A stretch of DNA of 64,000 nt. Source: Nymphaea colorata. Its lineage: Eukaryota; Streptophyta; Magnoliopsida; Nymphaeales; Nymphaeaceae. The notes under the pieces were generated by a model, which was not told where the DNA came from, did not search any database, and saw nothing but the letters and a program-made list of their open reading frames with translations. Numbering within the stretch: the first letter of the stretch is position 1; each line of letters begins with the position of its first letter. The stretch is from NCBI RefSeq assembly GCF_008831285.2, contig NC_045141.1, positions 24,165,315 to 24,229,314 on the forward strand. Direction: 5' to 3'. The position numbers were made by a program, and so were the translations under genes. Shown here in pieces: positions 17,367 through 50,603 of the stretch.

Positions 17367-19396
17367 ATGGAGGACAGAGAAGCAAAACTGACGATGATGC
17401 ACCTGGCTAACCTCATTAGCGTGCCTATGGCTCTCCACACAGCGGTCAAACTGGACATACCTGAGATAATCTGGCAAGGCGGTGTCAACCTCTCTGTCTC
17501 GCCCAAACAACTCGCGGGCTTGATCCGGACCAAGTTCGGCCTATCAACCCAGCCGGACGCCGTCAACCTGCAACGCATCCTCCGGGTCCTGGCCAGCCAC
17601 GGCGTGTCTGAAGAGGTCCCCGGCCATGGCCTTCAGGCTGACCAATGTCGGCCGGACTCTCATGGCCGACGATCAGGGTGTGTCGCTGGGCGCATACGGG
17701 CTGTAGCACCACCAGGACGCACTGGTTCACGGGTGGACTCACCTGCACGAGGCGGCGCTCGACTCGAGCGAAGCGGCGTTCAAGAAGGCTCATCGGGTGG
17801 CTGCCTACGAGCACTACGGCAAGGACCTCACCTATAACTCGGTCATGCAGCGGGCCATGGCCGGGGTGTGCCTGGCTATGATCGTTGAGAGATACCCAGG
17901 ATTGCAAGGCATCAACTTTGACCTCCCTGAAGTTGTGGCCAATGCTCCACAGTACCATGCTCTCTCTCTCTCTCTCTCTCAACATTCTTACACCTTGTAT
18001 CCATGCCCCATCGGCAGAGGATAATGTTTAGCTCATGTTCACCAGCCATTGATCAAATCAGAATGGACCCTTCCAAGGAATAAAAATTTAGGGTTTGTCA
18101 TTCATTGGTTAAATTCTTTAATCCATTCATACTGTTACTATATTACATATATATATATTTTTTGTAAATTGCCCTTACGACATCTGATGACCATCCACTT
18201 GAATGGCTTTTAAATGCTCTTCAGGGCACTTCTGCTAGAGATGCAACCCATGGTTTTCCATTCATCATTTGGATTTCCAGAGGCTTATCCTCCTCTTCTT
18301 CCTCCACCAGATGGCTATTGATCATCTCCAACCCATGATTTCAGAGTGGGCAGTTCCCCCTAAAGGGTTTCTGCATCAGCAGTGTTAGGATTTGCATGGA
18401 CAGTTTCTCGATCCACAGTGAGCACTGATGTGCAGACTCGACCTCAAGATGCATGATGTACGACGAGGCATTTTTCTGTGGTATACTTAATAGGGCATGT
18501 AAGTCTCATAGAGATTGTTTGGTAGCAATTCCATGATATGTCAAAAAGAAAATAGAGACAGATTTAAAGGTAATTTGGTAGTAGAGTCACTTTGTAAGTG
18601 TCCCTCCAATCTATCCCAAAACTTGGAGTAGGTTTGTAGAACAATAGTTCTAAAGTCTGATGAACATGCCTCAATCTTTGTAAAAGATTCATGAGTCTTG
18701 GAGATTTGGACAAATTGATGCCTCAATCTTTGTAAAAGATTCATGAGTCTTGAAGATTTGGACAAATTGAGGAAAGAACCAATGCAGCTTCCTATTACCA
18801 AACACGCCCACAGGGTATTTATATATGAAGCAACGTCATGCTGATCCCATGGCCTCCAGATCTACGTCAATTATAATGAAAACGGGAGAAGGATTTAGCC
18901 TTTTCCTATCTTTTTTGCTCTAAAAGAGTCTGTAGAATGTTTGAATCAGATGCTGTCTCTTGACCCAACGCCGTAGTACGATCAGGAACAATTTTCACCA
19001 AACTATATTATAAAAAGTTTCTTTTTAAGAACATTTCTGCGCCTAAAATTCTGTTAACATGAAATAATTTGACAGAAACATGACATGTATATCTGGAACA
19101 GTGGGTTTTAACTAGTTAGCGATGAAGAATGCCAGAAGATCTCAGAGAACTGCCACAAAGCTCTGCCAGAGAAGGGGATGCTGATTGTCTGCGAGCCCGT
19201 GGTGCCGGAGAACACCGACGCCAGCGTGCGAACTCGGGCCCTTCTGATGGGAAATTTATTCTTGACGGCAATGTACAGTGCATAAGGGCATGCACCGGAC
19301 TGAGTGGAGTACTGGAAGTATGGTCAGAAGGTTGGCTTGACCAGCTTCAGGTCACTGTACGTGGACCTTTTCGTCCTCATGGAGTTCCTCAAGTAG
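17367..19396 (+). pseudogene. NANMT-like methyltransferase pseudogene B
   Basis: Exon 1 starts MEDREAKLTMMHLANL and is collinear with D/H to about residue 85. A short deletion then shifts the frame. An in-register TAG stands in the Q-H-H-Q region. A deletion between AMAGV and CLAMIVERYPG removes the SAM loop. The exon 1 donor has lost its GT (GCTCTC tract). Exon 2 is absent. Exon 3 (19102-19396) begins W-V-L-T-S followed by a stop and has further shifts. It is the sister of pseudogene F by exon 1 and by 5' flank. No function is expected. Confidence 0.85.
18514..18810. repeat. Possible MITE with an internal 52-base tandem duplication
   Basis: The ends read TTGTTTGGTAG and ATTACCAAACAC, imperfect inverted repeats as in hAT-type miniature elements. 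Inside, a 52-base unit is repeated head to tail with one difference (18667-18718 and 18719-18770). It sits in the former intron region of pseudogene B. No target duplication was verified. Confidence 0.4.
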
Positions 19397-19528
19397 ATAA
19401 AGCTACTGGATTTTATTGAACAGTAGAGGTGTGAGCATCCATGGCTGCCTGGCCTGGACGTCTAGTGCCGAACTTTTAGCTTTTTGTTAATGTTAAGGAA
19501 ATTTGAGAGGCTGGATAAATAAGGGCAG

Positions 19529-19900
19529 TGTGTTGCTTGTTTCCAGCTCAAGCTCAACCAGACTCAGAAAGCTAAGTCGAGCTGCATGAAACAGACTCAA
19601 ACTCAACTTCATAATACAACGTGAGCTCGAGCTCGACTTCCCTAACTTGTTCTTATTAAGTGTGCCTCGTTTCATTTAAGTCATTCAACTATATTCTGAT
19701 TATATTTCAGTATTCATTATGTAGTCGAGTCTAGTTGAGACTCAACGAATCAATTTCTTACTACTCAAACTTAACTCGTTTAACATTTCGACCATGCATT
19801 TGAATTCAAGTTCAACATGTTTATAAAGGAGCCAAGTTTGCCAAGTTTTGACTAGTGAGTTCGAGTTGAGTTCAAACTGGCTGAGTTATTGTGCAGCCCA
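19529..19900. repeat. GAGCTCGA-rich dispersed repeat, copy 1
   Basis: About 370 bases rich in AGCTCGAGCTCGACT-like phrases, with CATGCATTTGAATTCAAG and TTGACTAGTGAGTTCGAGTTGAG. Closely related copies lie at about 35265-35600 and 42405-42765, in the same position of intron 1 of G-type copies. More distant ones lie at 30222-30330 and 32385-32785. It has no coding capacity and is probably a non-autonomous element of unknown class. Confidence 0.6.
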
Positions 19901-21224
19901 ACCCAAAAATATATTTGGAACCTAGCTCTTTCAAAAGGCTTTTTTTTTCCCTAATGTTTGTAGCATCGCTCGAGGTGTTTACAATTCACCTAGCTAGTGA
20001 ATAAGACATCAAGGCTTTCAGGTTAAAACGATGGCGAAGCGTTGAGCTCTAGGAATCATGTAGTCTCACACGATTACCCCAACATATGGGAAAGGAGTCT
20101 GCCTTACCCCAGCTTGTTAATTTATCAAGAAAAGAAGAAAACGACTACGTCATAAGAAAAGGACCATTCAAAAACATGGCTGCGTGCAGTATACAACATT
20201 ATCTTTTTTGGGTTCAAGTGGTAGACAAATCACATCAAATATGAACTCCAATTTTCTCCTCCTTTCCTTTTACTATTTGAAGATGGGTAGTGCATGTAAA
20301 ATAATGTCTCGGTACTATAAATTTGGCAATCCCATGTCATGAATTGAGTTCAGAAATAAGGCAAAAAATTAGGTGCATCTACATTTGCAGAGTACCCACT
20401 AGGCCAGCTGGAGAGACTGCAGAGTCAGTATTTGTTGCTCCAGTGGTTGACCATCATTATTACATCTTCGAGCAGGGCCAAGAACATGGGTCCGCCCTGT
20501 TCTTACTCATTCAATGCATAATGTCTATTTATGTACATGAAAGATCAAAGAGATCATAAGTGAAAACGGGGGAAAAAAAACTATTTCTAGGTTCTTGCGG
20601 AATAGTAAATTTTCCCAAGAATAAGATGTGACATTGGGTCCAACAATGAGATGACCCATCGTTTATAATCGACATATTTTAAGCCCACTGGGCTTACCTA
20701 GAGATAAGCAGTATCACCTAGGCCTTTATCGGTTTTATGTCATCCCAGAGGGAGTAAAATGCCTGTATGAAGCAGTTAATGAATGCTTTTACTGTGATCT
20801 GCCCCTACAACATTCCTTGTGATATAAAAGGCTACTGACCTGAAAGCATCTGCTGCATGCGTGGAACAGTCGATTTTCCCTGGTTTTAGCGATGATGAAT
20901 GCCAGAAGATCTTGGGAGGACTGCCACAAAGCTCTCCCGGAGAAGAGGAAGCTGATAGTCTGCGAGCCGGTGGTGCCCGAGAACAACGACGACAGCGTGC
21001 GAACTCGGGCCCTTCTGGTGGAAGACTTGTTCTTGATGGTAATGTACAGTGCTAAGGTCAGGCATCGGACTGAGTCTGAGTACAGGAAGCATGGTGAGGC
21101 AGCTGGATTCAGTAACTTCAGGTCACCGGACGTGGACCATTGCTTCACCCGCGTGGAGCTGCTTGATTTTACTGAACACAGGCGCGAGCGCCCATGGATG
21201 CCTGGCACGGTCGTCCAGTATTGA
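19901..21224 (+). pseudogene. NANMT-like pseudogene C (intron 1 remnant plus exon 3)
   Basis: 19901-20700 matches intron 1 of pseudogenes G and I. Exons 1 and 2 are missing. Exon 3 starts at 20870 with S-I-F-P-G-F-S-D-D-E-C, suffers an early one-base insertion, and continues in another frame as CHKALPEKRKLIVCEPVVPE to HRTESEYRKHGEAAGF. The normal stop is lost through a small deletion, so the frame runs to 21224. Its 3' flank continues into the promoter of intact gene D. It belongs to the G type of pseudogene. Confidence 0.75.
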
Positions 21225-21937: not shown

Positions 21938-24418
21938 ATGGAGGACAAAGAAGCGAGGCTGACCATGATGCACCTGGCCAACCTCATCAGCGTGCCCATG
22001 GCTCTCCATGCAGCAGTCAAACTGGACCTACCGGACCTCATCTGGCAAGGTGGTGCCAACCTCCCCGTCTCACCCGCACAACTCGCGAGCCTGATCCGAG
22101 CCAAGTTCAGCCTAGCAACCGAGCCAGACGCGGTCAACCTCCAACGCATCCTCCGGCTTCTAGCCAGCCACGGCGTGTTCGAAGAGGTCCCCGACCACGG
22201 CAACGCGCCGGCCAAGGCTTTCAGGCTGACCGACGTCGGCCGGACGCTCGTGACCGATGATCAGGGCTTGTCGCTGGGCGCGTACGTGCTGCAACACCAC
22301 CAAGATGCTCTGGTTCAGGCATGGCCTTGCCTGCACGAGTCCGTTCTTGACTCAAGCCAAGAGGCGTTCAAGAAGGCACATGGCGTGTCTGCCTACGAGT
22401 ACTACGTCAAGGACTCCGCCTGCAACTCGCTGATGCAGAGGGCTATGAGTGGGATGTCCGTGCCGTTCATGAGGGCGCTGCTCGAGTCCTATGATGGGTT
22501 CGAGTCCGAGGGGCTGAAGACGGTCGTGGACGTCGGCGGCAGCACCGGTTCTTGCTTGGCGATGATCCTGGAGAGGTACCCGGGATTGCATGGCATCAAC
22601 TTTGATCTCCCCGAAGTTGTGGCCGATGCGCCACAATACCAAGGTATCTCACCCTCTCTCTTACTCGTGACCTTTGAAGAGCTTTGTGATGTTCCCCAGT
22701 AACTTTGATATGGTTGTTGATTTGAATGAATAAGTCCTCACTCTTCTATATCTATATGTTACGAATCTCTCTCTCTCTCTCTCATGTCCACTTCAATGGA
22801 TGTTCACAAATGCAAATTCAAATTCAGATTGGATAAGAATGAAGAAAGGTCTATGCTATTTGTGAGTCCGATTTTAAGCACAAAATTGAACCTAACTTGA
22901 AAGACAAAGGAATTGGGTACTAATAGCTAGGAAGGACAAAACAAAGCAGAATGCAACAGGTGACAAATGAGGTGACAGACTTGTTGGGACACTGTTGCCT
23001 CTTTCAAGTCTTCCACTTGTTTTCTCATAAAAACAAAGCACACGTGCCACACTGAACCGTTTGCTTGTTTAGTGATGGGAATGTTTTGGGCACTTTTCTA
23101 TTGCAAACCCACCTTCGTCCACGGTTGGGGCTTTATTTGGGATACCTTCGCCCACGGTTGGGGCTTTATTTGGGATGATGATCGCTCTTTGGATTGTCTT
23201 GCGCATTGAAATATAGTTGTCATTCTGCATCATTTTGGGGATACCGGGGTTTCAATCTTAGTCGGTGTGTGAGTGCTCTTTGTGTTCTTAGTAGTGACGT
23301 CCGACAACTGAGTACTCTTTGTGTTCTTTTATGAAGAAAATTTCCTGCATAAATTGTTTATAATCAGGTAGCTTGTTGTTTATAATCAACATATTTGAAC
23401 GTTTTGGTGCTATCACGGTAACATCAAGCTTGGCTCTTTTACCTGCATAAATTGTTTGGGATGCACCACTTATGGGAATGGGAAACTGATATTTCTTGAA
23501 TTGTACTGTTGCATGCAATAGGCATGACGCACGTGGGTGGAAACATGTTCGAGTCAGTTCCAGCGGGAGACGCCATCTTCATGAAGGTTTTGAAATTTGA
23601 AGCTCTTTCTGCTTTGTACTCTCCAGTGGATTTCTTTTCTTCTTCTTATATGGATAGGACCATAGCCACAAAAAGTGCGGCTCATTTAATGTCCATTTCA
23701 GAGGTGAGCATGTGATCTTCTGAGGGCCACCAAAAATTAGCTGTGACAGGATTCGGATATGGTGTCGCGAAGCAACATCATGGGCATGTCAGGCTCTCCA
23801 TCTACATCCCGAATATTCAAAGATGGGAGAAGGATGTAACCTTTTCCTAGCTTTCTGCTCTAACAGAGTGTCTAATGGTAGAAGAGAATGTCTAGAGACA
23901 GAAGCTATTGTCTGGTGTGAGGATATGGTTTTGAGTTTTCTTCTCACTTTTCTCCTTTTTTAAGGACACCCAATTCAATTGGTCACACATTTAGTTTGTT
24001 TGAATTTGAAATGTTCATAGTGTAAGATCCAAATTAAAAAACCTATAGGTAATAATAATCTTAGATGCGCTTGTTTATCTAGGATGAAATAATTTGACAG
24101 ACACGACATACATATCTGGAACAGGGGATTTTAGCTGGTTTTAGCGATGAAAAATGCCACAAGATCATGGAGAACTGCCACAGAGCTCTTCCGGAGAAGG
24201 GGAAGCTGATTCTCTGTGAGCCGGTGGCGCCAGAGAACACCGACGCCAGCGTGCGGACTCGAGCACTTCTGGTGGGAGACATATTCTTGATGGCAATGTA
24301 CAAGAGCCTGCACCGGGCTGAGTCCGAGTACAGGAAGTATGGTGAGGCAGCTGGCTTCAGTAACTTCAGGTCACTGGACGTGGACCCTTACTTCACCCTC
24401 ATGGAGTTCCTCAAGTAG
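21938..24418 (+). CDS. NANMT-like / COMT-family methyltransferase, gene D
   Basis: Exons 21938-22643, 23522-23586 and 24125-24418 (354 aa), GT-AG introns, phases correct. Domain order as in A: dimerisation domain, QHHQ (119-122), SAM loop VDVGGSTG, GINFDLPEVV, GMTHVGGNMFESVP, then exon 3. Exon 3 begins G-I-L-A-G-F-S-D-E-K-C, so the family Trp is Gly258 and the COMT catalytic-His position is Ala261. The Glu after LIL-C is kept, and the second COMT Glu is His. Likely a cytosolic SAM-dependent methyltransferase. Nicotinate is the family substrate, but the altered site makes activity uncertain. The alternative is a non-catalytic or neofunctional paralogue. Exon 3 and 1.4 kb of 3' flank are almost identical to H. 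Confidence 0.85.
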
Positions 24419-25980: not shown

Positions 25981-26112
25981 TGGTGTACATAGGTGATAAG
26001 ATGTGGTCGGACGACGGTCTCCGGCTTCTTACATCGTCTGCTACCCTGTCTATAAATACTTCACCCGGACACATTTATTTCCAACATCCAGAAGCGCTCG
26101 CACAAGAAAGCG

Positions 26113-26251
26113 ATGGAGAGAGCCACGGAGGAGAGGAGAAAGAAGCAAGGATGACGATGATGCACCTGGCCAACCTCATCAACGTGCCCATGGCTCTTCA
26201 CACAGCAGTCAAACTTGACCAACCCGATCAAAACTGGCAAGGTGGTGCCAA
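26113..26251 (+). pseudogene. NANMT-like pseudogene E (first part of exon 1 only)
   Basis: The sequence reads through MTMMHLANLINVPMALHTAV to QGGAK and stops abruptly at 26251, where unrelated sequence begins. The position of the family start codon is ACG (26125-26127). By leader and text it belongs to the G/I type. It lies directly downstream of the D-type flank, just as I lies downstream of H. Confidence 0.75.
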
Positions 26252-30452: not shown

Positions 30453-32384
30453 GTGTATTAAGGACTTACTTGTATTGATTGTGCAGCAGAGCTCAGATAG
30501 AGGGAGAGAGAGCTGAGAGCCATGGATGACAGAGAAGCAAAAATGACGATAAAATGACGATGATGCACCTGGCTAACCTCATCAGCGTGCCTATGGCTCT
30601 CCACACAGCGGTCAGATTGGACATACCCGAGCTCATCTGGCAAGGCGGTGCCAGCCTCCCCATCTCGCCCAAACAACTCGCGGGCCTGATCCGGACCAAG
30701 TTCGGCCTGCCTATCAACCGAGCCGGACGCCGTCAACCTGCAACGCATCCTCCGGGTCCTGGCCAGCCACGGCGTGTTTGAAGAGGTTCCCGACCATGGG
30801 AAGCCGCCGGCCATGGCCTTCCGGCTGACCAGTGTCGGCCGGACTCTCGTGGCCCCACGATCTGGGCGCGTACGTGCTGCAGCACCACCAGGACGCACTG
30901 GTTCAGGCGTGGACTCACCTGCACGAGGCGGTGCTCGACTCGAGCGAAGCGGCGTTCAAGAAGACTCAGGTGGTGGCTGACTACGAGTACTACGGCAAGG
31001 ACCTCACCTACAACTCGGTCATACAGCGGGCCATGGCCGGGGTGTCCAAACCATTGATGAGGGCAGTGCTCGAGTCCTATGATGGGTTTGAGTCCAAGGG
31101 GCTGAAGACGCTCGTGGACGTTGGCGGCAGCTCTGGTGTGTCACGTGTGCCTGGCTATGATCGTTGAGAGATACCCAGGATTGCAAGGCATCAACTTTGA
31201 CCTCCCTGAAGTTGTGGCCAATGCTCCACAGTACCATGGTTTCTTTCTTTCTCTCTCTCTATCTCTCTCTCTCTCTCTCGTTAAGCTACACACAATTTCC
31301 TTGAAAGCTCCCCATGTGTCTGATGCAGCCCCACCTTGTTTATCAAGTAAAAGAAACAAGAGAACATCATATGATAAATGAAACATTCAAAAAGTAAAGT
31401 ATCAATTGCTCATAACATATCAGAACATGGCTTATACGCGTAAATCACAATATGATATTCAATTTTCTTTCCCTTTCTTTTCTTCTGTTTGAAGATAGGT
31501 GTCTGTGAAGATAAATAGATACAATACCTAGCTGCCACAACAGTATCTTGATCTCTGCCAGCTTTGTCGTGGAGTTAATTCTGAAATAGGGTTTCGCCGG
31601 TGGCTTTCAACCAGCAATTGACACGGCCCTCGTTTCTGCGTTGGTGTACCATCAATAATGTACATCGCCCTGTAGCAGCAGCATAGGTCGGCTAAAGAGA
31701 AAATAAAGATTTATTGCAAGGTTTTTGTGCAGCGACTTTTCCAAAGAACATGACACTTTGTGACATTGGATCCAACAAGATATAATGTGGCCCATCGTTT
31801 ATAATCAACATATCTGAAGTACATTTTGGGGTTATTAGGACAAGATGAAGCTTGTCTATTTAACTGCACATATTGCTTGGGGTGGATCCTTCATGAACTT
31901 ACATTTCTTTAAATGCATGTTGTACAACAGGTATGACGCACGTAGATGGTAGCATGTTCGAGTCTGTGCCTGCAGGAGATGCCATCTTCATAAAAGCTCT
32001 GAACTTTGAAACTGATCTTAGCTCTAAGCATAGGCTTCAAGTTTCTGATTGGACTGAAAAAATGTGATTCTAGCACATAAGGAACTTTTCTAAGTGTTCT
32101 AATTAAGAACATACAGCAATTTCTGTGTTCATCTCGGTCTCCTTATGGAAGTACATGCTGATTGAATTAAGTGACTAACATCGCCGAAGGGAGGCTAGAA
32201 ATCGGGTCTGGTTTTAGTACCCATCCATACAGATACTTCCTTTCTTAATTTGAAGGTCCAAGTCGCATCGCAAGGAAATCGGTTAATGCTTGTCAATCCA
32301 CTACCACTTATGTCTCTCCTGACTAGGGTTGTTTCTCAATCCACTACCATTTACGTCTCTCCTGACAAGCCTGTCCAGGAGCCA

Positions 32385-32785
32385 AGTCGAGCTTGAGCTC
32401 GACTCGACTCGACTTGAATCATATTGCTTTGCCCGGGCTTGAGTCAAGCTATACTTGTGCGGCTTGAGCTCGAGCTCGACTCAATAAGAGTCCAGACTCA
32501 AGCTCGACTTGCTTAAGCTCATTTACCAACTCCCTAATTGACTTGATCCCTTTCCTTCGTTTTAAGTTTAGAAATTACAAAGGAAAAAGATAGGCTAGAT
32601 TAAACAAGCTTACTCCAATTTAAATGAGTTGAACCTTTAGAAATCGAAGTCGACTCATCTATAAGCTCAAGCTTGACTCGTTTATAAACAGAGCTAATAG
32701 GCTTCATGTTACGTCAATTCGAACTTGCTCGATCTGTATGAGTCCAAGTCGAGCTCAAGTTGGCTCGACTAACTGTACAGCCCTA
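32385..32785. repeat. GAGCTCGA-rich dispersed repeat in intron 2 of pseudogene F
   Basis: Dense TCGAGCTTGAGCTCGACTCG-like phrases with AAGCTTGACTCGTTTATAAA. It is more diverged from the three intron 1 copies than those are from each other, so it is a separate insertion. Confidence 0.55.
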
Positions 32786-32859
32786 CTCCCTTTGGGCTCT
32801 CTGTCATGAACGATAGGATTTTTTGTGTTTCAACAATTTCCTTATACTAATGGGGAAAG

Positions 32860-33060
32860 GGTGCGGCGCACCAATATATATATTCTGGCTAGCTTAGATT
32901 TGAGACTTCGCTTTCAGCACCATATTTATTGCTCATCTGACTAATCTCACAGGGCTAATTCTCACATTCAATTTGGAATTCTTGTGGCACTCTGTGGCAA
33001 AATTTGATGTTACTCTCGTAGATCACCTCCTACAAAATGATTGCTTTTTACCATCACTAA
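32860..33060 (-). mobile_element. LINE fragment in intron 2 of pseudogene F
   Basis: Aligns with 46430-46560, the minus-strand LINE piece in copy I (shared CTAAT-GGGGAAAG, CACCAA-ATATTCTGGCT, TTCGCTTTCAGCACCA-type phrases). Too decayed to read a protein. The shared insertion dates it before the split of the F and I introns. Confidence 0.45.
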
Positions 33061-34304: not shown

Positions 34305-36781
34305 ATGGAGGAGAGCAGAAACAAGCAAGGATGACGATGATGCACCTGGCCAACCTCATCAGCCTGCCCATGGCTCTTCTTCATGCAGCAGTCAAACTTG
34401 ACCAACCCGATCAAATCTGGCAAGGTGGTGCCAACCTCACCGTCTCGGCCAAACAACTCATGGTCCTGATCCCGACCAAGCTGGGCTAAGCAACAGAGCT
34501 GGACACTGTCAACCTCCAGCGCACCCTCCGGGTCCTAGCCAGCCAAGGTGTCTTTCAAGAGGTCCCCGACTACAACCTGCTGGCGAGGCCTTCCCGCAGT
34601 GACTGAGCCAAAAAAAAAATTATCAAATGGGCACTTACCTTAGTGGGTATGGTGCCTATGAGCTTGCCATGAACATCACATCTGGTTGGATCCAGATCCA
34701 ACCCCTTCCTAGTAAAAATTTTCAACTATTGGTTTTGGTTGGCATGGGCAATGGCCCACACCAGCCACACATAGCTCCGCTACTGCCTTTAGGCTGGCTG
34801 ACCTTGGCCGGATGCTCGTGACCGATGATTGGGGTCTGTCGTTGGGCGCATACGTGCTGCAGCACCACCTGGACGCACTTGCTCAGGCGTGGACTCACCT
34901 GCATGAGGTGGTGCTCGACTTGAGTGCACCAGCGTTCAAGAAGCCTCATGGGGTGACTGCCTGCGAGTACTTCGGCAAGGACCCCATCTACAGCTCGATG
35001 ATGCAACGAGTCAGGCGCGGAGTGTGCAGGCCATTCATGACGACATTGCTCAAGTCCTGTGACGGGTTTAGAGTCGCAGATGTTGGCGGCAGGGTTTGAC
35101 CTCCTTGAAGTTGTGGCCAATGCTAGTATGAAATTGAGTACTATATATATATATATATGTCAATTACATACTAACTTTTAGAAATTATCTAGAGTACATG
35201 ACATAGGCCCCCAAAAAAAAAAGAAAAGGCCCAAAAGTTGGGGTGCATGCGGCCAACGCAAGATCAACCTGACTCAGAAAGCTCATATCGAGCTCCACAG
35301 AACAGACTCAAACTCAACCTCACAATACAACGTCAGCTCGAGCTCAACTTCTTTAACTTGTTTCTATTAAGTGTGCCTCGTTTCGTATGACTCATTCAAC
35401 TATTCTCTCATTATATTTTTTAGTGTTCATTATGCAATCTAGTCTATCTGAGTTTAAGAGTTCTTACTACTCCAACTTAAGTTGTTTAACATTTCGAGCA
35501 TGCATTTGAATTCAAGCTCAACATGTTTATAAAGGAGCCAAGTTTTGACTAGTGAGTTCGAGTTGAGCTCAAACTGGCTAGACTTATTGTGCAGTCCACC
35601 TCAAAAATATATTTGGAACCTAGCTCTTGCAAAAGTTTCTTTTTAAAAAAAAAAAAAAAAAACTAATGTTTGAAGCATCGCTCGACTTGTTTACAATTCA
35701 CCTAGCTAGTGAATTAAAACTTCAAGGCTTTCAAGTTAAAACGATGGCGCAGAGTTGAACTCTAGGAATCTTGTAGTCTCACACGATTAGACCAACATAT
35801 GGGGAAGGAGTCCGCCTTACCCCAGCCTGTTAATTTATCAAGTAAAGAAGAAAGCGACTGCGTGGACCATTCAAAAGCATGGCTGCATGCAATAAACAAC
35901 ATTATTTTTTTGGGTTTACGTGGTAGACAAATCACACCAAATATGAACTCCAGTTTTCTCCTCCTTTCCTTTTACTATTTGAAGATGGATGGTGCATGTA
36001 AAATAATGTCTCGCTACTATAAATTTGGCAATCCCTGTCATGGATTTGAGTTCAGAAATAAGGCAAAAAAAAATTAGGTGCATCTACATAACTCAGATTT
36101 GCACAGTACCCAATAGGCCAGCTGGAGAGACTGCAGAGTCACTATTTGTTGCTCCAGTTGGTCGACCATCATTATTACAACTTCAAGCAGGCCAAGAACA
36201 TGGATATGTGACATTGGATCCAACAATAAGATGACCCATTGTATATTATCGACATATTTTAAGCCCACGGGGCTTACCTAGAGATAAGCAGTATCACCCA
36301 GGCCTTTATCGGTTTTCTGTCATCCCAGAGGGAGTAAAATGCCTGTATGAAGCAGTTAATGAATGCTTTTGTTGTGATCTGCCCCTACAACATTCCTTGT
36401 GATATAAAAGGCTACTGGCCGGAAAGCATCTGATGCATACATGGAACAGTAGATTTTCCCTGGTGTTAGAGATGATGAATGCCAAAAGCTCTCCCGGAGA
36501 AGAGGAAGCTGATAGTCTGCGAGCCGGTGGTGCCCGAGAACAACAACGACAGCGTACGAACTCGGGCCCTTCTGGTGGGAGACTTGTTCTTGATGGTAAT
36601 GTACATTGCTAAGGTCGGGCATCGGACTGAGTTTGAGTACAGGAAGCATGGTGAGGCAGCTGGATTCAGTAACTTCAGGTCACCGGACGTGGACCATTGC
36701 TTCACCCGCATGGAGCAGCTTGATTTTACTGAACACAGGCGCGAGCGCCCATGGGTGCCAGGCACGGCCGTCCAGTGTTGA
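34305..36781 (+). pseudogene. NANMT-like pseudogene G
   Basis: Exon 1 from ATG 34305 is interrupted early by a stop (after TKLG), by about 200 inserted bases (34590-34785), and by deletion of the SAM loop (DVGG joined to the FDLPEVV region). Readable text includes LGAYVLQHHLDALAQAWTHL. Exon 2 is absent. Exon 3 (from 36450) begins with TAG in place of Trp, lacks about 25 bases after DDEC, and runs on past the normal stop. The internal insertion and SAM-loop deletion are shared with I, so both descend from one already broken copy. Confidence 0.85.
35265..35600. repeat. GAGCTCGA-rich dispersed repeat, intron 1 of pseudogene G
   Basis: Close relative of 19529-19900 and 42405-42765, at the same intron position. 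It was therefore inherited by duplication and not inserted independently. Confidence 0.6.
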
Positions 36782-37494: not shown

Positions 37495-40000
37495 ATGGAG
37501 GACAAAGAAGCGAGGCTGACCATGATGCACCTGGCCAACCTCATCAGCGTGCCCATGGCTCTCCACACAGCAGTCAAACTGGACATACCCGACCTCATCT
37601 GGCAAGGTGGTGCCAACCTCCCCATCTCACCCGCACAACTCGCGAGCCTGATCCGAGCCAAGTTCAGCCTAGCAACTGAACCAGACGCGGTCAACCTCCA
37701 ACGCATCCTCCGGCTTCTAGCCAGCCACGGCGTGTTCGAAGAGGTCCCCGACCACGGCAACCCGCCGGCCAAGGCTTTCAGGCTGACCGACGTCGGCCGG
37801 ACGCTCGTGACCGACGATCAGGGCATTTCGCTGGGCGCGTACGTGCTGCAACACCACCAGGATGCTTTGGTTCAGGCATGGGCTTACCTACACAAGTCCG
37901 TTCTTGACTCCAGCCAAGAGGCGTTCAAGATGGCTCATGGCGTGTCTTCCTACGAGTACTACGTCAAGGACTCCGCCTGCAACTCGCTCATGCAGAGGGC
38001 TATGAGCGGGGTGTCCGTGCCGTTCGTGAGGGCACTGCTAGATTCCTATGACGGGTTCGGGTCCGAGGGGCTGAAGACGGTCGTGGACGTCGGCGGCAGC
38101 ACCGGTTCTTGCTTGGCGATGATCCTGGAGAGGTACCCGGGATTGCATGGCATCAACTTTGATCTCCCCGAAGTTGTGGCCGATGCTCCACAATACCAAG
38201 GTATCTCACCCTCTCTCTTACTCGTGATGTGATAAGAAAAAATAAAAGGTCCTTCGAAGAGCTTTGTGATATTCCCCATGCAGGTAGCTTTGATATGGTT
38301 GTTGATTTGGATGAATAAGTCCTCACTCTTCTATATGTTACGAATCTCTCTCTCTCTCTCATGTCCACTTCAATGGATATTCACAAATGCAAATTCAGAT
38401 TCGATAAGAACGAAGAAAGGTCTATGAGTCCGATTTTAAGCTCAAAATTGAGCAGATCTGTGTCGAATTCCTTCAGGAAATGACACAGAATTCTAGCAAA
38501 TGTTCTCTAAGAAAGATATGCGACAGATGACAAATGAGGTGACAGACTTGTTGTGCTAAAACTAAGGGAAAAGCTTTGCTGGCACGTAGAGTGGCACAGT
38601 GACGCTTGGAAACCGTTAGCTTGTTTTGTGATTAGAATGTTTTGGACACCTCTCTCGCAAACCCACCTTTGTCCATGGTTAGGGTTTTATCTAGGATGGT
38701 GATCACCCGTTGGATTGCTTTAGGCATTGAGATATGGTTGTCTTTCGACGTCATCTTAAGGGGTACCAAGGTTTCCAACTTTAGTTGGCGTGTAAATCTT
38801 CTTTGTGTTCTTGATAGTGGCGTCTGACAACTAAGCATTCCCTCGTCACTCTTTTCATCTGTTAGTGGTGAAAGTCACTAGAACCATGCACTTCTTGGTT
38901 GCTTTGGCTAGCCTACCATCATTAGTTTGTACACGGCCAAAAGCATAAGAGGGAAAAAGAAATATTGTTGCAAGATCTTTTATGAACAAAATTTCCCGAT
39001 AACAAGAAATATTGGTGACATAATTGAATGTGCAGCGATAAGGTAGCTTGTTGTTTATAATCAACATATTTCAACGTTTTGGTGCTATCAGGGCAACATC
39101 AAGCTTGGCTCTTTTACTGCATAAATTGTTTGGGATGCACGACCTATGGGAAACTGATTTCTTGACTTGTACTGTTCCATGCAACAGGCGTGACGCACGT
39201 GGGTGGTAACATGTTCGAGTCAGTTCCAGCGGGAGACGCCATCTTCATGAAGGTTTTGAAATTTGAAGCTCTTTCTGCTTTGTTCTCTGCAGTGGTTTTC
39301 TTTTCTTCTTCTTACGGGCATGTGATCTTCTGAGGGCCACCCAAAAATTAGCTGTGACAGAAATCGGATATGATGTTACGAAGAAACTACATCCCGAATA
39401 TTCAAAGATGGGAGAAGGATGGAGCCTTTCACTAGCTTTCTGCTCTAACAGAGTGTTTAATGGTAGAAGAGAATGTCTAGAGACAGACGCTATTGTTTGG
39501 TGTGAGGATATGGTTTTGAGTTTTTTTTTCACTTTTCTCCTTTTTTTAAGGATACCCAATTCAATTGGTCACAGTTTGTTTGAATTTGAAATGTTCATAG
39601 TGTAGGATCCAGATTAAAAAACCTATAGGTAATAATAATCGAAGATGCGCTTGTTTTTCTAAGATGAAATAATTTGACCGACACATGACATATATATCTG
39701 GAACAGTGGATTTTAGCTGGTTTTAGCGATGAAGAATGCCACAAGATCATGGAGAACTGCCACAGAGCTCTGCCGGAGAAGGGGAAGCTGATTCTCTGCG
39801 AGCCGGTGGCGCCAGAGAACACCGACGCCAGCGTGCGGACTCGAGCACTTCTGGTGGGAGACATATTCTTGATGGCAATGTACAAGAGCCTGCACCGGGC
39901 TGAGTCCGAGTACAGGAAGTATGGTGAGGCAGCTGGCTTCAGTAACTTCAGGTCACTGGACGTGGACCCTTACTTCACCCTCATGGAGTTCCTCAAGTAG
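37495..40000 (+). CDS. NANMT-like / COMT-family methyltransferase, gene H
   Basis: Exons 37495-38200, 39188-39252 and 39707-40000 (354 aa), GT-AG, phases correct. It contains QHHQ (119-122), SAM loop VVDVGGSTG, GINFDLPEVV, GVTHVGGNMFESVP, and an exon 3 opening of W-I-L-A-G-F-S-D-E-E-C. The family Trp is retained, unlike D, but Ala-Gly replaces the Thr-Thr of J, and the COMT catalytic His is absent. Exon 1 differs from D at about 14 of 235 residues while exon 3 differs at only two, so the gene is a mosaic of older and recent copying. Role: presumably a SAM-dependent N- or O-methyltransferase acting on nicotinate or a related small acid; substrate unproven. Confidence 0.88.
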
Positions 40001-41440: not shown

Positions 41441-42404
41441 CCAACATGCAGAAGCTCTGACACAAGAAAGCGATGGAGAGAGCCGGAGGAGAGGAGAAAG
41501 AAGCAAGGATGACGATGATGCACCTTGAGCGTGCCCCTGGCTCTTCACACAGCTGTCAAACTTGACCAGCCCGATCAAATCTGGCAAGGTGGTGCCAAGA
41601 TCCCCGTCTCGGCCAAACAACTCAAGGGCCTGATCCCGACCAAGTTCGGCATAGCAACAGCGCCGGACGCAGTCAACCTCCAGCTGCATCTTCGGGGTCC
41701 TAGCCAGCCAAGGTGTCTTTCAAGAGGTTCCCTACTACAACCCGCTGGCCATGGCCAAATGAGCACTTACCTTAGTGGGTTTGGTGCATATGGGGCATTA
41801 ACGTGAGTTTGCCATAGACACTACATCTGGTTGTATTCAAATCTAACCTCTTTCTAGTAAAAATTTTTAAGTACTGGTTTTGGTTGGTGTGGGCAATGGC
41901 CCACACCAGCCACACATGGCTCCGTACTGCCTTTAGGCTGACCGACCTTGGCCGGACTCTTGGGACCGAGGATTGGGGTCTGTCGTTGGGCGCATACGTG
42001 CTGCGGCACCACCTGGAGGCACGGACTCAGGCGTGGACTCACCTGCATGAGGTGGTGCTAGACTTGAGTGCACCAGCGTTCAAGAAGGCTCATGGGGTGA
42101 CTGCATACTAGTACTTGGGCAACTTCAGCAAGGACCCCATCTACAGCCCGATGATGCAGAGAGCCATGAGCGGAGTGGCATGACGACATTGCTCAAGTCC
42201 TGTGATGGGTTTGGATCCAAGGGCTTAAAGACAGTCGTGGATGTTGGCGGCACGGTTTGACCTCCTTGAAGTTGTGGCCAATGCTAGTATGTAAATTGAG
42301 AAATATATATATATATATAGGTCTCAATTACATACTAACTTTTAGAAATTATCTCGAGTACATGACATAGGCCCCCAAAGAAAGAAAAAACCCAAAAGTT
42401 GAGC

Positions 42405-42765
42405 TGTATGCGGACAGCTCAAGCTGAACCTGACTCAAAAAGCTCAAGTCGGACTCCACAAAACAGACTCAAACTCAACTTCATAATACAACGTGATCTC
42501 GAGCTCGACTTCCGTAAGCTGTTCCTATTAAGTGTGCCTCATTTTTTTAACTCGTTCAACTATTCTCTCATTATATTTCAGTATTCATTATGTAATCAAG
42601 TCTATTTGAGTTTAAATGAGTCAAGTTCCTACTACTGGAACTTCACTCGTTTAACATTTGGAACATGCATTTGAATTCAAGCTTGACACGTTTATAAAGG
42701 AGTCAAGTTTTGACTACTTGAGTTCCAGTCGAACTCCAACTGACTCGACTCATTAAGCAGCCCTA
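42405..42765. repeat. GAGCTCGA-rich dispersed repeat, intron 1 of pseudogene I
   Basis: Same repeat and same intron position as in C and G, preceded by the shared phrase ACATACTAACTTTTAGAAAT and a TA tract. Confidence 0.6.
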
Positions 42766-43734
42766 CCCAAAAATATATTTGGAACCTAGCTCTTTTGAAA
42801 GTTTCTTTTTTTTACTAATGTTTGTAGCTAGCTAGTGAATAAGACTTCGATTACCCCTACATATGGGGAAGGAGTCTGCCTTACCCCAGCTCGTTAATTT
42901 ATCAAGAAAAAGAAGAAAGCGACTGCGTCATAAGAAAAGGACCATTCAAAAACATGGCTGCGTGCAGTATACAACATTATCTTTTTTGGGTTCAAGTGGT
43001 AGACAAATCACATCAAATATGAACTCCAATTTTCTCCTCCTTTCCTTTTACTTTTTGAAGATGGATAGTGCATGTAAAATAATGTCCCGCTACTATAAAT
43101 TTGGCAATCCCTCTTGGAGTTGAGTTCAGAAATAAGGCAAAAAAAATTAGGTGCATCTACAAAACTCAGATTTGTACAGTACCCACTAGGCCAGCTGGAG
43201 AGACTGCAGAGTCACTATTTGTTGCTCCAGTTCCAGTTGGATGACCATCATTATTGCATCTTCGAGCAGGCCAAGATGCATAATGTCTGTTTATGCACAT
43301 GAGCGATCGAAGAAATCATAAAGTGAAAACAAGGAAAAAAAGCTATTTCTAGGTTTTTGCGGAATAGTAAATTTTCCTAATAATAAGATATGTGACATTG
43401 GATCCAACAATAAGATGGCCCATCGTTTATAATCGACATATTTTAACATTGTGATGTTATTATGGCAACCAGAAGCTTGGCTCTTTAACTGCACACCCCG
43501 TCTGGCAGCCAACATTTCTTTAATGCACTGTACTTAACAGGCAGGTAGGTGGTAACATGTTCGACCATGGTCCTGCAGGAGATGCCATCTTCACGAAGGT
43601 TTTAAATTTTGCAACTCTTATTACTCTAATTCTCTCCATCGTTTTCTTTTGCGTACACACGACGCGATCATGGCTGTAAAAAAAGCGAGCATCTTATCTT
43701 TGATTGGAGACTGAGTTGCGTGAACACCTCCTCC

Positions 43735-43980
43735 AGGCAACAAATAGGCACCGAAATGAAAGAAAGAGTGGTGGCATTTTATAAATTTTTGACAAAGTTA
43801 TGTAGATTTTAGTTTTTTAATATTTTCATAAATCTCATTTCGTCCTGTTCCTTTTTTTATTTTCAGAGGCGCAACAAATACGCAGCAAGAAATGAAAAAG
43901 AATGAGTGGTGGCATTTTAAAAAAGTTTGATGAAATTATGTACATTTTAATTTTTTAATATTTTCATAAGTAGTCCTTTT
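43735..43980. repeat. Imperfect tandem duplication of about 125 bases
   Basis: Two units (about 43735-43850 and 43866-43975) share GCAACAAATA, GAGTGGTGGCATTTTA, and TTTTTAATATTTTCATAA. It lies in intron 2 of pseudogene I. Confidence 0.6.
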
Positions 43981-43989
43981 TTTTTTTTT

Positions 43990-45980
43990 TTTTGAGAGGC
44001 GGGCATGTACTCATTATATATTATCAAGTGCTTCCTTGGGTTTCTCCTTGTTGACTGCAGGCCAAAAATCCAATGGTAGAGAAGAAGTCTTGCACTATTT
44101 ACCAGTGAGTGGTATTATTGGACTAATCCTTTGGTGGGAAATGTTCCTTTTGGCTCTTCCTGACTGATTGATCTTCCTAAAGTGAAACAAGTTGAGAAAC
44201 GGCAAGACTTGTGCCAGCGGATGAAACCATGACGAGGACGTCGACACAATAGGGGGGCTTCTAAAATGCAAGGTAGCTTGCTTACTCTCCATCGTCCCCG
44301 GTGGCCAGCGGGGGATTTGGTATAGCAGTTCATGTTTATTTGCGAAAGCGTTCCATGAGACTAATCTCTTCCATGTTCAATTCTCTTCTATGTTAGAAAA
44401 TTGTTTTTCCTGCTAATTTCTTCTAAGTGGTCCTATTCCCTGGTCCATCCCCTGAGGGAATCCTTTAAAGGATAGACTTTAGGTCCACATTATATACGGC
44501 CTTTCAGAATGATATCCGATCGTTCAAGAATAGGCAGTACTCTTCGTATTTGGTTTGGTGTTGCTAAGTACTTGTTGTTATTCATTGGATGCCTGAGGAA
44601 CTTCTTCGTTAGGATTGGGTTTCTTCTCTAGAGAGAAAGATTACCTCTTTTTGCCTAAGACTTTCTTAGTGGCAGAGACAAGATTTTTTTTGTCGATTTC
44701 AAAATTTTAATGAGGGTTAAAATATAAACTTTTAATATATATATATATATATATAAATTTGGAGGAGTCAAAAACCTGCTCCGGTACGACACGGGTACCT
44801 TTAGATGTTCAAACCAAAGAGCTGACAAAGGCATGCATGCCAAAAATATTATAATTTACTTCGCTTCTTCAAGGAGATCTTAACTGTAAGAGCCTCACCT
44901 CTATTATGAGAAAGTTTAGTTCTAAATTGACTAACTAATTAGTTATCTTGATTCCTAACTTTTTTGAGAAAAAGAATCAAATTTGTTAAGGAGCAAAATG
45001 AAACTCATCACATCACATGAGCTCGGTATAGAAGTGGGCCGAGTCGCAAGGATACGAAGGTTACTCGGGATCAGATTCAAGCATGGAAGCAAGATTGAAC
45101 GCACTGACCTCACAAGATGGAATCAACGTCGGGGTATTTTAATCTTCTTGTATTTGAACACCTCCGAGTCATGGAACCACTTTAATGGAGCGTCTTAGTC
45201 ATCACACACCCCGGTGCATGCACAGGAATGTGTACCTAACCACCTTCGCTCTGATTAGCCATGGCCAATAGATAGGTGGCAATGTGATATGGTGAGGCTC
45301 ATTCATTGGCTACCCAAAAAACAGGTAAAGTCTTGAAGGAAGGAGTGGTAAACTTTTCTATGCCAACCTGCTGAGAGACAAGGGACCCTATCCTTTTATT
45401 GCTCAAAGATTAAAGGTACTTGCAAAGACAACATGACACAAAAGGGAGACATGAAGCGGTTGTTTGGTAGTAAGAGAACTATATTAATGTTCTATTAATT
45501 TGTTCTAATTTTTGAGGTAGATTTATGAAACACTCCTATAGCATTTCTACAGTCAAACGTATAGCATTCCCACAGTCAAACTAAGCCAAAAGGGAGAAAG
45601 CAAGCCTACGTTATTAGAATAAGGTGTCCCAATCCTCCAACACTCTGGCTCAATCAAGAGAAGGTGAAAAAGAAGGAGAGTAACAACTTCCATCTTGGGC
45701 ACCAACTTGAGCGGTGTGTACCAAGTGGTGCATACAATAAACAAGTACCAAGAAAAAAAGAAAGGAAGAGTTTGGGATTTTAGGAATTTTTGATAAAAAG
45801 GAAATATACACTTTTTGAACTTTTAACCATTTCATAACCTTTCTTGTCTTTGTAAAAGGACCCCCCTTTTTATTTAGTCTATGGTATTTTTAGTCATTAT
45901 ACACAATGTATACAATATTTTATCCATAGGGATGTGCACATAACCAGTTTCTAATTTTTGAAGAGTTTGTTTCCATAAAA
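43990..45980. other. Unrecognised insertion within pseudogene I
   Basis: About 2 kb with no counterpart in the other array copies and no recognisable domain in any frame. A TA repeat lies at about 44738-44757 and a GGCAGAGACAAGA-type dispersed repeat fragment near 44672. It is probably transposon-derived, but I cannot name the family. Confidence 0.35.
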
Positions 45981-46388
45981 ATGAAAAGCGTGGACCCATC
46001 GCCTTTTGATTCCTGAGTGCTCCTTTTATACGTTCTCTCTATTAGTGGCGTAGCCATAGGACAAATTGTTTCTTGAAGCTCCAGATGACTGCAAAGAATG
46101 CTGAACAGGAAATCATAGGCTTCAAATTTCTCATTGGACTGAAAAAAATCTAATCCCAGCACATAGGTTTTTTTTTTTTTTTTTTTTGGTGTTCTACCAA
46201 CCCAAATCAGTGCCTGCATCCTCTTGCTGATTGAATTGAGATGTCAAAAATCAACAAAGGAAGGCCAAGGGTCGTGTTTGATTGTAGCGCTCATCCACAA
46301 AAAAATATGATCTCCTTTTTAATTTGAAGATCCAAGTGGCATTGCGAACCTGTCTGTGAACGCTTCTCAAACACTGCCACATATGTCT

Positions 46389-46831
46389 TCAGGCATTGGA
46401 CTGTTTCTCATGAAGGATATCATTCTTGTGTTTCCACAAGTTTGTCATGCTAATAGGGGAAAGCAGGGCACCAACATATTCTGGCTCACTTAGATTCGAA
46501 GCTTCGCTTCCACCACCAAATATATTGAATTTGGATCTTACGAAACTCCAAAAAGAAGTTACAATTCTACATTTTAAGAACAAATTGGAGTGTCTCTTCC
46601 TCAAATTAACTTGTGGGCATATAAGCATCTATCTGCCATGGAAGTGCCAAAATTTTGGAATCTATGCAGGGTCAGTAATTCTCCTTCGTGTGCAAGGAAA
46701 AGAAACCATTTTGCCTTAGGAATAACATCATTATGCCAAATCTTTTTTACAATCGTACTATTGTTAAAAGAGTATAAATTTTGACGAGGATAAGGGGTGA
46801 GGAATGAAGAGATATTTTGAGATAAGCCCAC
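46389..46831 (-). mobile_element. LINE fragment: reverse-transcriptase zinc-binding (zf-RVT) region
   Basis: The minus strand reads VKKIWHNDVIPKAKWFLFL, then HEGELLTLHRFQN and C-L-Y-A-H, then after one frame change a segment ending LFLKCRIVTSFWSFV and NLWKHKNDIL. The W-x-VP-K-x-FLFL-H-x-LLT pattern, spaced Cys and final FW are typical of the zf-RVT domain at the C-terminal end of plant LINE ORF2. The polymerase core is absent. It lies inside intron 2 of pseudogene I, with a related piece in F. Confidence 0.7.
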
Positions 46832-48065
46832 TGGGCTTAGCTAGAGATAAGCAGTATCACCTAGGCCTTGATCGCTTTCTGTCATCCCAGAGCGAGTGAA
46901 TTGCCTGTATGAAGCAGTTCATGAATCCTTTGACTGTTATCTGCCCCTACAACCACTTGTGTTCATGATTCCTTGTGATATAAAATGCTACTGACCGGAA
47001 AGCATCTGATGCATGCATGGAACAGTGGATTTTCCCTGGTTTTAGAGACGATGAATGGCAGAAGATCTTGGGAGAAATGCCATAAAGCTCTCCCGGAGAA
47101 GGGGAAGCTGGATAGTCTGCGAGCCGGTGGTGCCCGAGAACAACGACGCGTGCGAACTCCGGCTCTTCTGGTGGGAGACTCGTTCTTGATGGCAATATAC
47201 AGTGGTAAGGTCAGGCATCGGACTGAGTCTGAGTACAGGAAGTATGGCGAGGCAGCTGGCTTCACTAACTTCAGGTCACCGGACGTGGACCATTACTTCA
47301 CCCTCAAGGAGTTCCATAAATAGATGGAGCTGCTTGATTTTACTGAACACAGGCGAGAGCGCCCATGGGTGCCTGACCAGGCCGTCCGGTGCCGAGCTTC
47401 TAGCTCTTTTTAGTGTGAATGTTGAAGAAATTAAAAAAGCTGGATAAATAGGGACAATGTGTTGCATGCTTACTTGATGTTGTTCGTTCGGTAAAGAATG
47501 AGTACTGCTATCTTTGTGGTATGTTATATTTTCTTTCCACTTTGTTAGTTTGTAGATGTAATATTTGTTTATCCACCAAACACGGAGAAAAAATTAAAAT
47601 TGGTGGCAATTTGATTTTGATTCACCAACTGCTGTTTATTACTTTACTGTTTTTAAATATTTCACAAGCAATTGCATTTGTGTATTATATGTTCCTTTTT
47701 TTTTAATTTAACAGCAGTAATTCGTTTTGTCGCTTTGCAATTCAACTCTTAAATATTTTTACGGCACTGCTTCCGATATATAATTTAACCAACGGTGGAC
47801 CATATATGTAGTGGTTTGTTTCATTTAAAATTGTTGTGGCAGATTTTTTCTTTTGCAGTAAACAATAGTGAACGGTAAAATATTTTTTGAAAAAATGCAA
47901 AGGACTAAAACGAGAAGCGTAAAGAGCACGGGAGGATAAAATTGTCAATGGTGGGATGAGTCCTACTAGAAAAAGAAATGCCGTCCGGAGAAAGATAAGA
48001 TGTGGATGGATCAGAGTCTATGGAACCAAGCTTTGTACGGCAAATTAATCGTCCGCTACCTTCTC

Positions 48066-48072: not shown

Positions 48073-48133
48073 GCGTTGATACAGACATTTTTGTATCCGA
48101 TATGCAGCGGCAGCTCTAGGGAGAGAGAGAGCC

Positions 48134-48979
48134 ATGGAGGACAAAGAAGCGAGGCTGACCATGATGCACCTGGCAAACCTCATCAGCGTGCCCATGGCTC
48201 TCCACACAGCAGTCAAACTGGACCTACCGGACCTCATCTGGCAAGGTGGTGCCAACCTCCCCATCTCACCCGCACAGCTCGCGAGCCTGATCCGAGCCAA
48301 GTTCAGCCTAGCAACCGAGCCAGACGCGGTCAACCTCCAACGCATCCTCCGGCTTCTAGCGGGCCACGGCGTGTTCGAAGAGGTCCCCGACCACGGCAAC
48401 CCGCCGGCCAAGGCTTTCAGGCTGACCGACGTCGGCCGGACGCTCGTGAGCGACGATCAGGGCTTGTCGCTGGGCGCGTACGTGCTGCAACACCACCAGG
48501 ATGCTCTGGTTCAGGCATGGACTTGCCTGCACGAGTCCGTCATTGACTCGAGCCAAGAGGCGTTCAAGAAGGCACATGGCGTGTCTGCCTACGAGTACTA
48601 CGGCAAGGACTCCGCCTGCAACTCGCTGATGCAGAGGGCTATGAGTGGGGTGTCCGTGCCGTTCGTGAGGGCACTGCTCGAGTCCTATGATGGGTTCGGG
48701 TCCGAGGGGCTGAAGACGGTCGTGGACGTCGGCGGCAGCTCCGGTTCTTGCTTGGCGATGATCCTGCAGAGGTACCCGGGATTGCAAGGCATCAACTTTG
48801 ATCTCCCGGAAGTTGTGGCGGATGCTCCAAGATACCAAGGTACCTCACCCTCTCTCTTACTCGTGATGCGATAAGATAAAAAAAAAAGATAAGGAAAAAA
48901 GCTTTGTGATGTTCCCCATGCAGGTAACTTTGATATGTTGTTGTTTTGAATAAGTCCTCGCTCTTCTATGTGTTACGAA

Positions 48980-49023
<44 letters not shown>

Positions 49024-50603
49024 GTAATTGTGAATCTAAAACCAATTTCTTGAAAATGCTGCAAATGATGCTCCTCATGTGGACAACTTTGAAGAAACAA
49101 GCCTTCATTCTTTTCATCCAACTTTTTGGAAAACCGAGTTGGAGCACATGACTTAGGGACCCCAAGCAGGAAAAAGCCCAAAAGTACATTTGTAATCTGG
49201 CGTTTTTTTAGGACGCATAACGTACGATGTTTATTACACATTGGCATGTGACTCTTCACCCACTAGGTGAGCTGGTGAAAGTCACTAGAACCACGCACTT
49301 CTTGGTTGCTTTGGTTGGCCTACCATCATTAATTAGTACAGGAGGGGGGGGGGAGAAAGATTATTCCAAGATCATTTAAGAAGAAAATTTCCTGAAAACA
49401 AATATTGGTGACATCATTGAATGAGCAGCAATGAGGTAGCTCATTGCTTATAATCAACATATTTGAACCTTTTGGTGCTATCAGGGCAACATCAAGCTTG
49501 ATTCTTTTACTGCATAAATTGTTTGGGACGCACGACCTATGGGAAACTGATATTTCTTGAAATGTTCTGTTGCATGCAACAGGCGTGACGCACATGGGTG
49601 GTAACATGTTCGAGTCAGTTCCAGCGGGAGACGCCATCTTCATGAAGGTTTTGAAATTTGAAGCTCTTTCTGCTTTGTTCTCTGCAGTGGTTTTCTTTTC
49701 TTCTTCCTAAATGGATAGGACCATAGCTACAAAAAGTGCAGCTCATTTAATGTCCATTACAGAGGTGAGCATGTGATCTTCTGAGGGCCACTAAAAATTA
49801 GCTGCAACAGGAATCGGATATGGTGTTACGAAGCAACATCATGGGGATGTCACGTTCTCCATTTCTACATCCCGAATATTCGAAGATGGGAGAAGGATGT
49901 AGCCTTTTCCTAGCTTTCTGCTCTAACAGAGTGTTTAATGGTAGAAGAGAATGTCTAGAGACAGAAGCTATTGTCTGGTGTGAGGATATGGTTTTGAGTT
50001 TTCTTTTCACTTTTCTCCTTTTTTAAGGATACCCAATTCAATTGGTCACATATTTAGGTTGTTTGAATTTGAAATGTTCATAGTGTAAGATCCAAATTAA
50101 ACAACCTATAGGTAATAATCATCTTAAATGCGCTTGTTTATCAGGCTTAAAGGCCAAAGACATGCCCTAAAATAGTTTTTGTTAACTGAAATTAGGTTTA
50201 ATCTGAGATCCTCGGATTTGAAGTCGAGTTGCAATATTGTCTTCGAATCCTTATGATATGAAATGTAATTGACATGAAAGCTTCTTACACTTATTTGGGA
50301 CAGTGGGTTCTAACTACTTGGAGCGATGATGAATGCAAAAAGATTTTAGAGAACTGCCAAAAAGCGCTGCCGGAAAAAGGGAAGGTGATAGCCTGTGAGC
50401 CGGTGGTGCCGGAGAACACCGACAACAGCGAGCGAACTCGGGCACTTCTGGCGGGGGACATCTTTGTGATGGCAACCTACAGTGCTAAGGGTAAGCACCG
50501 GACTGAGTCTGAGTACAGGAACATAGGAGTGGCTGCTGGCTTCACCAACTTCAGGGCACTCTATGTGGACCACTTCTACACACTCTTGGAGTTCATAAAA
50601 TAG
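48134..50603 (+). CDS. NANMT: Nicotinate N-methyltransferase-like protein, gene J
   Basis: Exons 48134-48839, 49583-49647 and 50304-50603 (356 aa), GT-AG, phases correct. It is the best match in the array to Arabidopsis At3g53140 (nicotinate + SAM to trigonelline, cytosolic) as I recall it: MMHLANLISVPMAL, WQGGAN, LGAYVLQHHQ (113-122), VVDVGGSSG, GINFDLPEVV, then W-V-L-T-T-W-S-D-D-E-C (258-268), GKVIACEPVVPE, RTRALLAGDIFVM and GKHRTE. Thr261 stands at the COMT catalytic-His position, Glu289 is kept, and His322 replaces the second Glu, as in that family. Promoter through intron 2 are D/H-like, whereas exon 3 resembles gene A. Homology to D/H ends near 50142, so J is probably a recombinant. The altered TATA box is noted separately. 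Confidence 0.9.

Follow-up and report, generated by a model that had tools for sequence, protein, structure and literature searches.

How has a methyltransferase gene come to be multiplied at a single locus of Nymphaea colorata, and what might its copies make? The locus lies in a stretch of 64,000 nucleotides (NC_045141.1, positions 24,165,315 to 24,229,314 of the forward strand), all of which was analysed and which we call the window; it holds an array of genes resembling that for nicotinate N-methyltransferase (NANMT), the enzyme that converts free nicotinate to trigonelline. Genes belonging to a known enzyme family have truly multiplied here; one of them is clearly a recombinant, and the catalytic loops are unusual. 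We think it reasonably probable that an N-methyltransferase gene of NANMT type, itself derived from COMT, has expanded in tandem by birth and death, with an eEF2 paralogue on either side and the two convergent. As the initial annotation of this DNA suggested, the amplification may have served the production of trigonelline or of new compounds.

An exon 1 profile of six rows and an exon 3 profile of eight were searched against both strands of the window with E values up to 1. The exon 1 profile matched nine copies (A, B, D, an exon 1 fragment, E, F, G, H and I; 14 rows) and the exon 3 profile likewise nine (A, B, C, D, part of E, F, G, H and I; 9 rows), all on the + strand, and these searches returned no family matches beyond those loci. 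There are thus ten loci in total: A at 2.2 kb, then B, C, D, the fragment, E, F, G, H and I (Table 1). Nine of them lie between 17367 and 50603, three intact (D, G and I) and six broken, so that the initial annotation, which had counted three intact and six broken copies with an outlier at 2.2 kb, was right in its count by profile searches and gene models alike, as it was in its outer coordinates and in the common orientation. Genes A, D, G and I have full open frames across three exons, separated by GT..AG introns of 164 to 987 bases; with the stop codon included in exon 3, exon lengths are 709/65/300 in A, 706/65/294 in D and G and 706/65/300 in I, giving proteins of 357 (A), 354 (D and G) and 356 (I) amino acids. 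The exon plan of 706/65/about 297 that had been ascribed to all copies holds for these four genes but is not borne out for every copy. The six others have frameshifts, stops, large deletions or absent exons, and the idea of three exons in every copy was rejected: apart from the four intact genes, only E and H among the six broken copies yielded the 65-nt exon 2; exon 1 is absent from C, which meets the 3' flank of B at 19542/19543; and the fragment covers just the beginning of exon 1. No exon 2 turned up in B, whose exon 3 has a 2-nt deletion, or in F, where the first codon of exon 3 is a stop. Two minor features of the gene models may be added here. The donor site of intron 1 of gene A (2866-2974) reads GTCTCT, since the intron starts inside a TC repeat, to which a TA repeat is joined. 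In copy H, a segment of about 3.3 kb (43446-46823), lying for the most part between exons 2 and 3, matches none of the other copies over 150 bases or more and is probably an insertion.

Table 1. Family copies, the breakpoint zone of gene I and the flanking eEF2 exons, in positions of the window.
Feature	Position	Strand	Remarks
Gene A, intact outlier	2157..3563; exons 2157-2865, 3035-3099, 3264-3563	+	loop GVLVSF; Asn at Glu329 position
Copy B, broken, T type	17367..19432	+	exon 1: 17-nt and 93-nt deletions, stop in original frame
Copy C, broken, P type by exon 3	19543..21189	+	intron 1 remnant 19543-20489, exon 3 20857-21189
Gene D, intact, L type	21938..24418; exons 21938-22643, 23522-23586, 24125-24418	+	loop GILAGF
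Exon 1 fragment, P-type-like	26112..26251	+	only start of exon 1
Copy E, broken, T type	30502..33424	+	exon 1 indels, exon 2 at 31930, exon 3 truncated
Copy F, broken, P type	34296..36746	+	exon 1 insertion of about 196 nt; deletion directly after DVGG codons
Gene G, intact, L type	37495..40000; exons 37495-38200, 39188-39252, 39707-40000	+	loop WILAGF
Copy H, broken, P type	41475..47360	+	exon 1 insertion of 175 nt; exon 2 at 43545
Gene I, intact recombinant	48134..50603; exons 48134-48839, 49583-49647, 50304-50603	+	loop WVLTTW; His at Glu329 position
Breakpoint zone, end of intron 2 of gene I	50090..50303		5' side D/G-like; 3' side (exon 3, 3' flank) of other lineage
eEF2 main exon, open stretch, left flank	11350..13869	+	convergent with right copy
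eEF2 main exon, open stretch, right flank	52333..54852	-	convergent with left copy

The arrangement of the copies bears on how the array grew. The exon 1 tree, built without the 26.1 kb fragment, resolves three types, L (D, G and I), T (B and E) and P (F and H), and the exon 3 tree, built without E, places C, F and H together. A dead P copy stands ahead of each live L copy, in the pairs C-D, F-G and H-I, and the stretches between P and L copies are homologous among the three pairs; unequal exchange could have amplified the dead P copy along with the live L copy. The exon 1 insertion site and the deletion after the DVGG codons are identical in F and H, so these lesions are older than the separation of the two copies. 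The 26.1 kb fragment resembles the P type. It was considered as a simple block-duplication partner of H, an idea dropped because the fragment is closer to F (89.6%) than to H (86.7%).

Exchange has also shaped the last gene of the array. Judged from its sequence, gene I is a recombinant, with exons 1-2 of D/G type and a catalytic exon 3 of an older lineage, a new finding of this study. While its exons 1-2 match D/G, the synonymous differences between D and I rise from about 14 at 184 sites in exons 1+2 (synonymous divergence, dS, 0.08) to 26 at 64 sites in exon 3 (dS 0.58; Fisher p 9e-9). In the exon 3 tree a clade of the six other array copies tested excludes I (support 99/98), and D, G and I as a single exon 3 clade are rejected by the approximately unbiased (AU) test (p 0.0012). 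Followed along the locus in windows of 120 columns, the identity of D and I is 92-98% in exon 1 and 81-97% over the last part of intron 1, exon 2 and the greater part of intron 2; it stands at 92-97% from exon 2 to about 50090, drops to 87% and then 66%, and is 77-80% in exon 3 and 40-58% past the stop. Neither exon 3 of I nor its 3' flank has a near-identical partner. Since the downstream flank differs as well, an exchange at the end of the array is the simplest reading of the 3' border, and unequal exchange would have given the terminal gene its D/G-type 5' part while the older catalytic exon was retained.

What do these genes encode? By their predicted domains the window proteins are class II plant methyltransferases. 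In a Pfam scan of A, D and I (G, 95.2% identical to D, was left out), the O-methyltransferase dimerisation domain PF08100 and Methyltransf_2, PF00891, were above their cut-offs in all three, the latter with 160.6-175.3 bits; the scan otherwise gave only two general methyltransferase families in A, below their cut-offs, and no SABATH family domain in any of the three, which argues against a trigonelline synthase of the coffee type. The closest solved structures are COMT-type O-methyltransferases, with 38-41% identity to the four used (1kyw, 6iwt, 6i70 and 9wam). Residues are numbered here after alfalfa COMT (1kyw), those of broken copies having been read by eye from the DNA alignment, and the roles of COMT residues 269, 297, 329 and 251, like the numbering of its pocket, are as we take them to be. 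At position 269 there is Thr in I, B and E, Ala in D and G, Pro in C, F and H and Val in A, so that none of the nine copies with the site has the catalytic His. Position 329 is His in seven of the eight copies that have the site (D, G, I, B, C, F and H) and Asn in A, and is missing in E; the catalytic pair His269 and Glu329 of COMT is therefore lacking. Glu297 and the DVGG motif for S-adenosylmethionine (SAM) are retained in all four intact genes. On each of these residues the initial annotation, which had described a lost His, a second Glu changed to His or Asn, and an intact SAM site and first Glu in the good copies, is borne out. Asp251, presumably a SAM contact, is Asn in all four intact genes, and the positions that we take to line the COMT pocket differ as well (131 is His in D, G and I and Asn in A; 172 is Cys; 176 is Met; 183 is Val, Met or Leu).

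The loss of His269 together with the replacement of Glu329 favours an NANMT-type N-methyltransferase over a phenolic O-methyltransferase, and we regard the array genes as likely NANMT-type enzymes. We assume that the absence of His269 combined with His at 329 is the motif that defines NANMT, and D, G, I, B, C, F and H carry it, A having Asn. The ring nitrogen of nicotinate, with its free lone pair, would need no general base, and methyl transfer from SAM would then require positioning only, so that His269 could be lost; the His replacing Glu329 may help to hold the carboxylate. In a tree of these eight proteins, the four window proteins are split from the four COMT-type rows by a 100/100 branch, and an inexact sequence of the Arabidopsis enzyme At3g53140, when included, falls on the window side (100/100) with 50-57% identity. 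The NANMT-like reading of the initial annotation is thus upheld only in part: amplification is clear and the residue swaps favour the NANMT type, with the reservations given below.

The catalytic loops suggest that not all intact copies do the same work. Gene I retains Trp271 of COMT, and both its loop and its His at the Glu329 position are, we presume, those of At3g53140; D, G and A carry other loops. Among broken copies, E has WVLTSF, B starts in the same way before its 2-base deletion, and C, F and H have IFPG. Only D and G have lost two codons adjoining the Glu329 site, and where G and I start exon 3 with a Trp codon, D (24125) and A (3264) have GGG (Gly) beside the splice site. Gene I is accordingly the best candidate, and the predicted trigonelline maker, while D, G and A, with their altered loops, are candidates for enzymes acting on other nitrogen-heterocyclic acids; the loops are hints of new products and prove none. 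With one conserved and several altered catalytic exons, the array offers natural material for finding out which residues convert an O-methyltransferase scaffold to N-methylation and alter its acceptor.

Are the intact copies maintained? We fitted a codon model of our own to the four intact genes on one tree, giving values of omega (the nonsynonymous to synonymous rate ratio) that exchange between copies may bias. For gene A omega is 0.15 in exons 1+2 and 0.11 in exon 3, and omega=1 is rejected for both (twice the log-likelihood difference, 2dL, 95.8 and 17.9). Neutrality is also rejected for exon 3 of gene I (omega 0.17, 2dL 8.1) and for exons 1+2 of D/G (omega 0.28, 2dL 12.8), and these exons, like gene A as a whole, therefore appear to be maintained.

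Several observations weigh against the expansion and the enzyme type proposed here. Most copies are dead. The middle of intron 1 of gene I is unlike D (5-58%), so that the resemblance of its 5' part to D comes in patches and not as a single tract; the odd patch may reflect separate exchanges or insertions. Neutrality is not rejected for exons 1+2 of gene I (omega 0.42, 2dL 1.75) or for exon 3 of D/G (omega 0.37, 2dL 3.57, p about 0.06), and the Trp adjoining Lys265 (Trp266) is lost in D and A. With no outgroup beyond the four COMT-type rows, the root of the protein tree cannot be placed. The comparison with NANMT used an At3g53140 sequence that, at 355 residues against the 359 given in the excerpt of PMC8877179, is inexact and may be biased towards the window proteins. 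Finally, COMT-type enzymes are reported with related activity, namely AcGNMT3/4 of the COMT branch in Areca (excerpt of PMC12046898) and, weakly and for nicotinate itself, the COMT of Arabidopsis (excerpt of PMC8877179), so the residue argument for N-methylation is not strict.

Some of these points would suit a plainer history, in which only I, and perhaps A, is a working NANMT and D and G are decaying duplicates with no new function. Six of the nine array copies are broken, the D/G catalytic exon has a raised omega (0.37 against 0.14 in the rest; 2dL 3.08, not significant at 5%) and neutrality is not rejected for it, both proteins are two codons short near the Glu329 site and D is without Trp266. 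Yet D and G have full open frames and splice sites, and selection on their exons 1+2 is supported at the 2dL given above. We hold such a history to be rather unlikely, although the catalytic exon of D/G may be either altered or in early decay.

It is improbable that the array works as a diversification device, in which exchange keeps exons 1-2 of the live array genes alike while exon 3 comes in differing forms. Class II enzymes are dimers, and mixed dimers of live members could then form, with putative pyridine or reduced-pyridine products other than trigonelline; exons 1-2 would correspond to the dimerisation domain and SAM site and exon 3 to the acceptor side.

Returning to birth-and-death expansion of an NANMT-type gene, we find it very unlikely that the copies are genuine phenolic O-methyltransferases that keep COMT function with a changed base, given the absence of His269 from nine of nine and of Glu329 from eight of eight copies with the site and the changes at several presumed pocket residues (131, 172, 176 and 183); speaking for COMT function are the shared domains, the 38-41% identity to four solved COMT-type enzymes and the report, in the available part of PMC12046898, that AcGNMTs carry out both N- and O-methylation of guvacine. 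That two haplotypes were joined in tandem, making part of the array an artefact of assembly, can hardly be credited: between the C-D and F-G regions identity does reach 93-98% for long stretches, at an offset of about 15.6 kb, but elsewhere the same pairs fall to about 85% (19543-20489 versus 35253-36203) or 58-80% (middle of intron 1, D versus G), B and E are 86.6% identical, no near-identical counterpart exists for the third exon of I or for its 3' flank, and F and H differ apart from their common lesions.

Expansion of an NANMT-type gene has a precedent, although comparisons with known systems show differences. At 354-357 amino acids the intact proteins are close in length to At3g53140, the NaNMT of Arabidopsis (EC 2.1.1.7; 359 amino acids, PMC8877179, in part). 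In Areca catechu, AcGNMT1 and AcGNMT2 are tandem genes placed by their authors in the NANMT branch; both methylate guvacine, only AcGNMT2 of the pair makes trigonelline, and palm members of the branch are linked to arecoline, a duplication with substrate change like that considered here. They form a pair with introns over 17 kb and 6 kb, far from the short introns of the window genes (all from excerpts of PMC12046898). Among the matches listed, and as far as the excerpts of these papers go, the Areca pair is the only case of tandem NANMT-branch genes. Alfalfa COMT (1kyw), pCOMT-S (6iwt) and other class II enzymes share both domains, the SAM motif and Glu297 with the window genes, which do not keep His269 and Glu329. 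The coffee synthases CTgS1/2 have the presumed product in common but belong to the SABATH family (PMC8877179, in part), in contrast to PF00891/PF08100 here. In cereals, the nicotinate N-methyltransferases Os02g57760 of rice and ZmNANMT of maize are reported for trigonelline or nicotinate, the former being listed as an O-methyltransferase (PMC5059443, PMC12779843); the parts available link NANMT to rice grain width (PMC5059443) and to maize disease susceptibility (PMC12779843), and its roles are also treated in PMC6776627, again seen as an excerpt. No close relative of gene I was confirmed in viral contigs (4 pattern matches) or in bacterial and archaeal genome contigs (25).

The array is flanked by two convergent eEF2 genes (10892-13875 and 52327-55293). 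Of 2517 bases in their open stretches, 30 differ, 25 of them at third positions, whereas identity is only 74-81% in the corresponding flanks on the outer sides (to 7857 and 58264), a contrast suggestive of gene conversion or strong constraint. The GC content at third codon positions (GC3) is 0.74-0.75 in D, G and I, 0.65 in A and 0.44-0.45 in eEF2, values that would suit a monocot or magnoliid without proving either. Pectinesterase-like pieces lie at 4999-7255 on the - strand as three open stretches in profile order, one of them below the Pfam cut-off, and could be either an intron-bearing or a broken gene. A Copia-type retroelement fragment occupies 27817-28850, with Pol_BBD above and gag_pre-integrs and rve below their cut-offs; between 26.2 and 30.5 kb there are no terminal repeats of 40 bases or more as expected of a complete long terminal repeat (LTR) element. 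Scans of the window for tRNA genes and Rfam families gave no hits. At 60639-61260 there is a tandem repeat with a 194-base unit, 3.2 copies and 93% matches.

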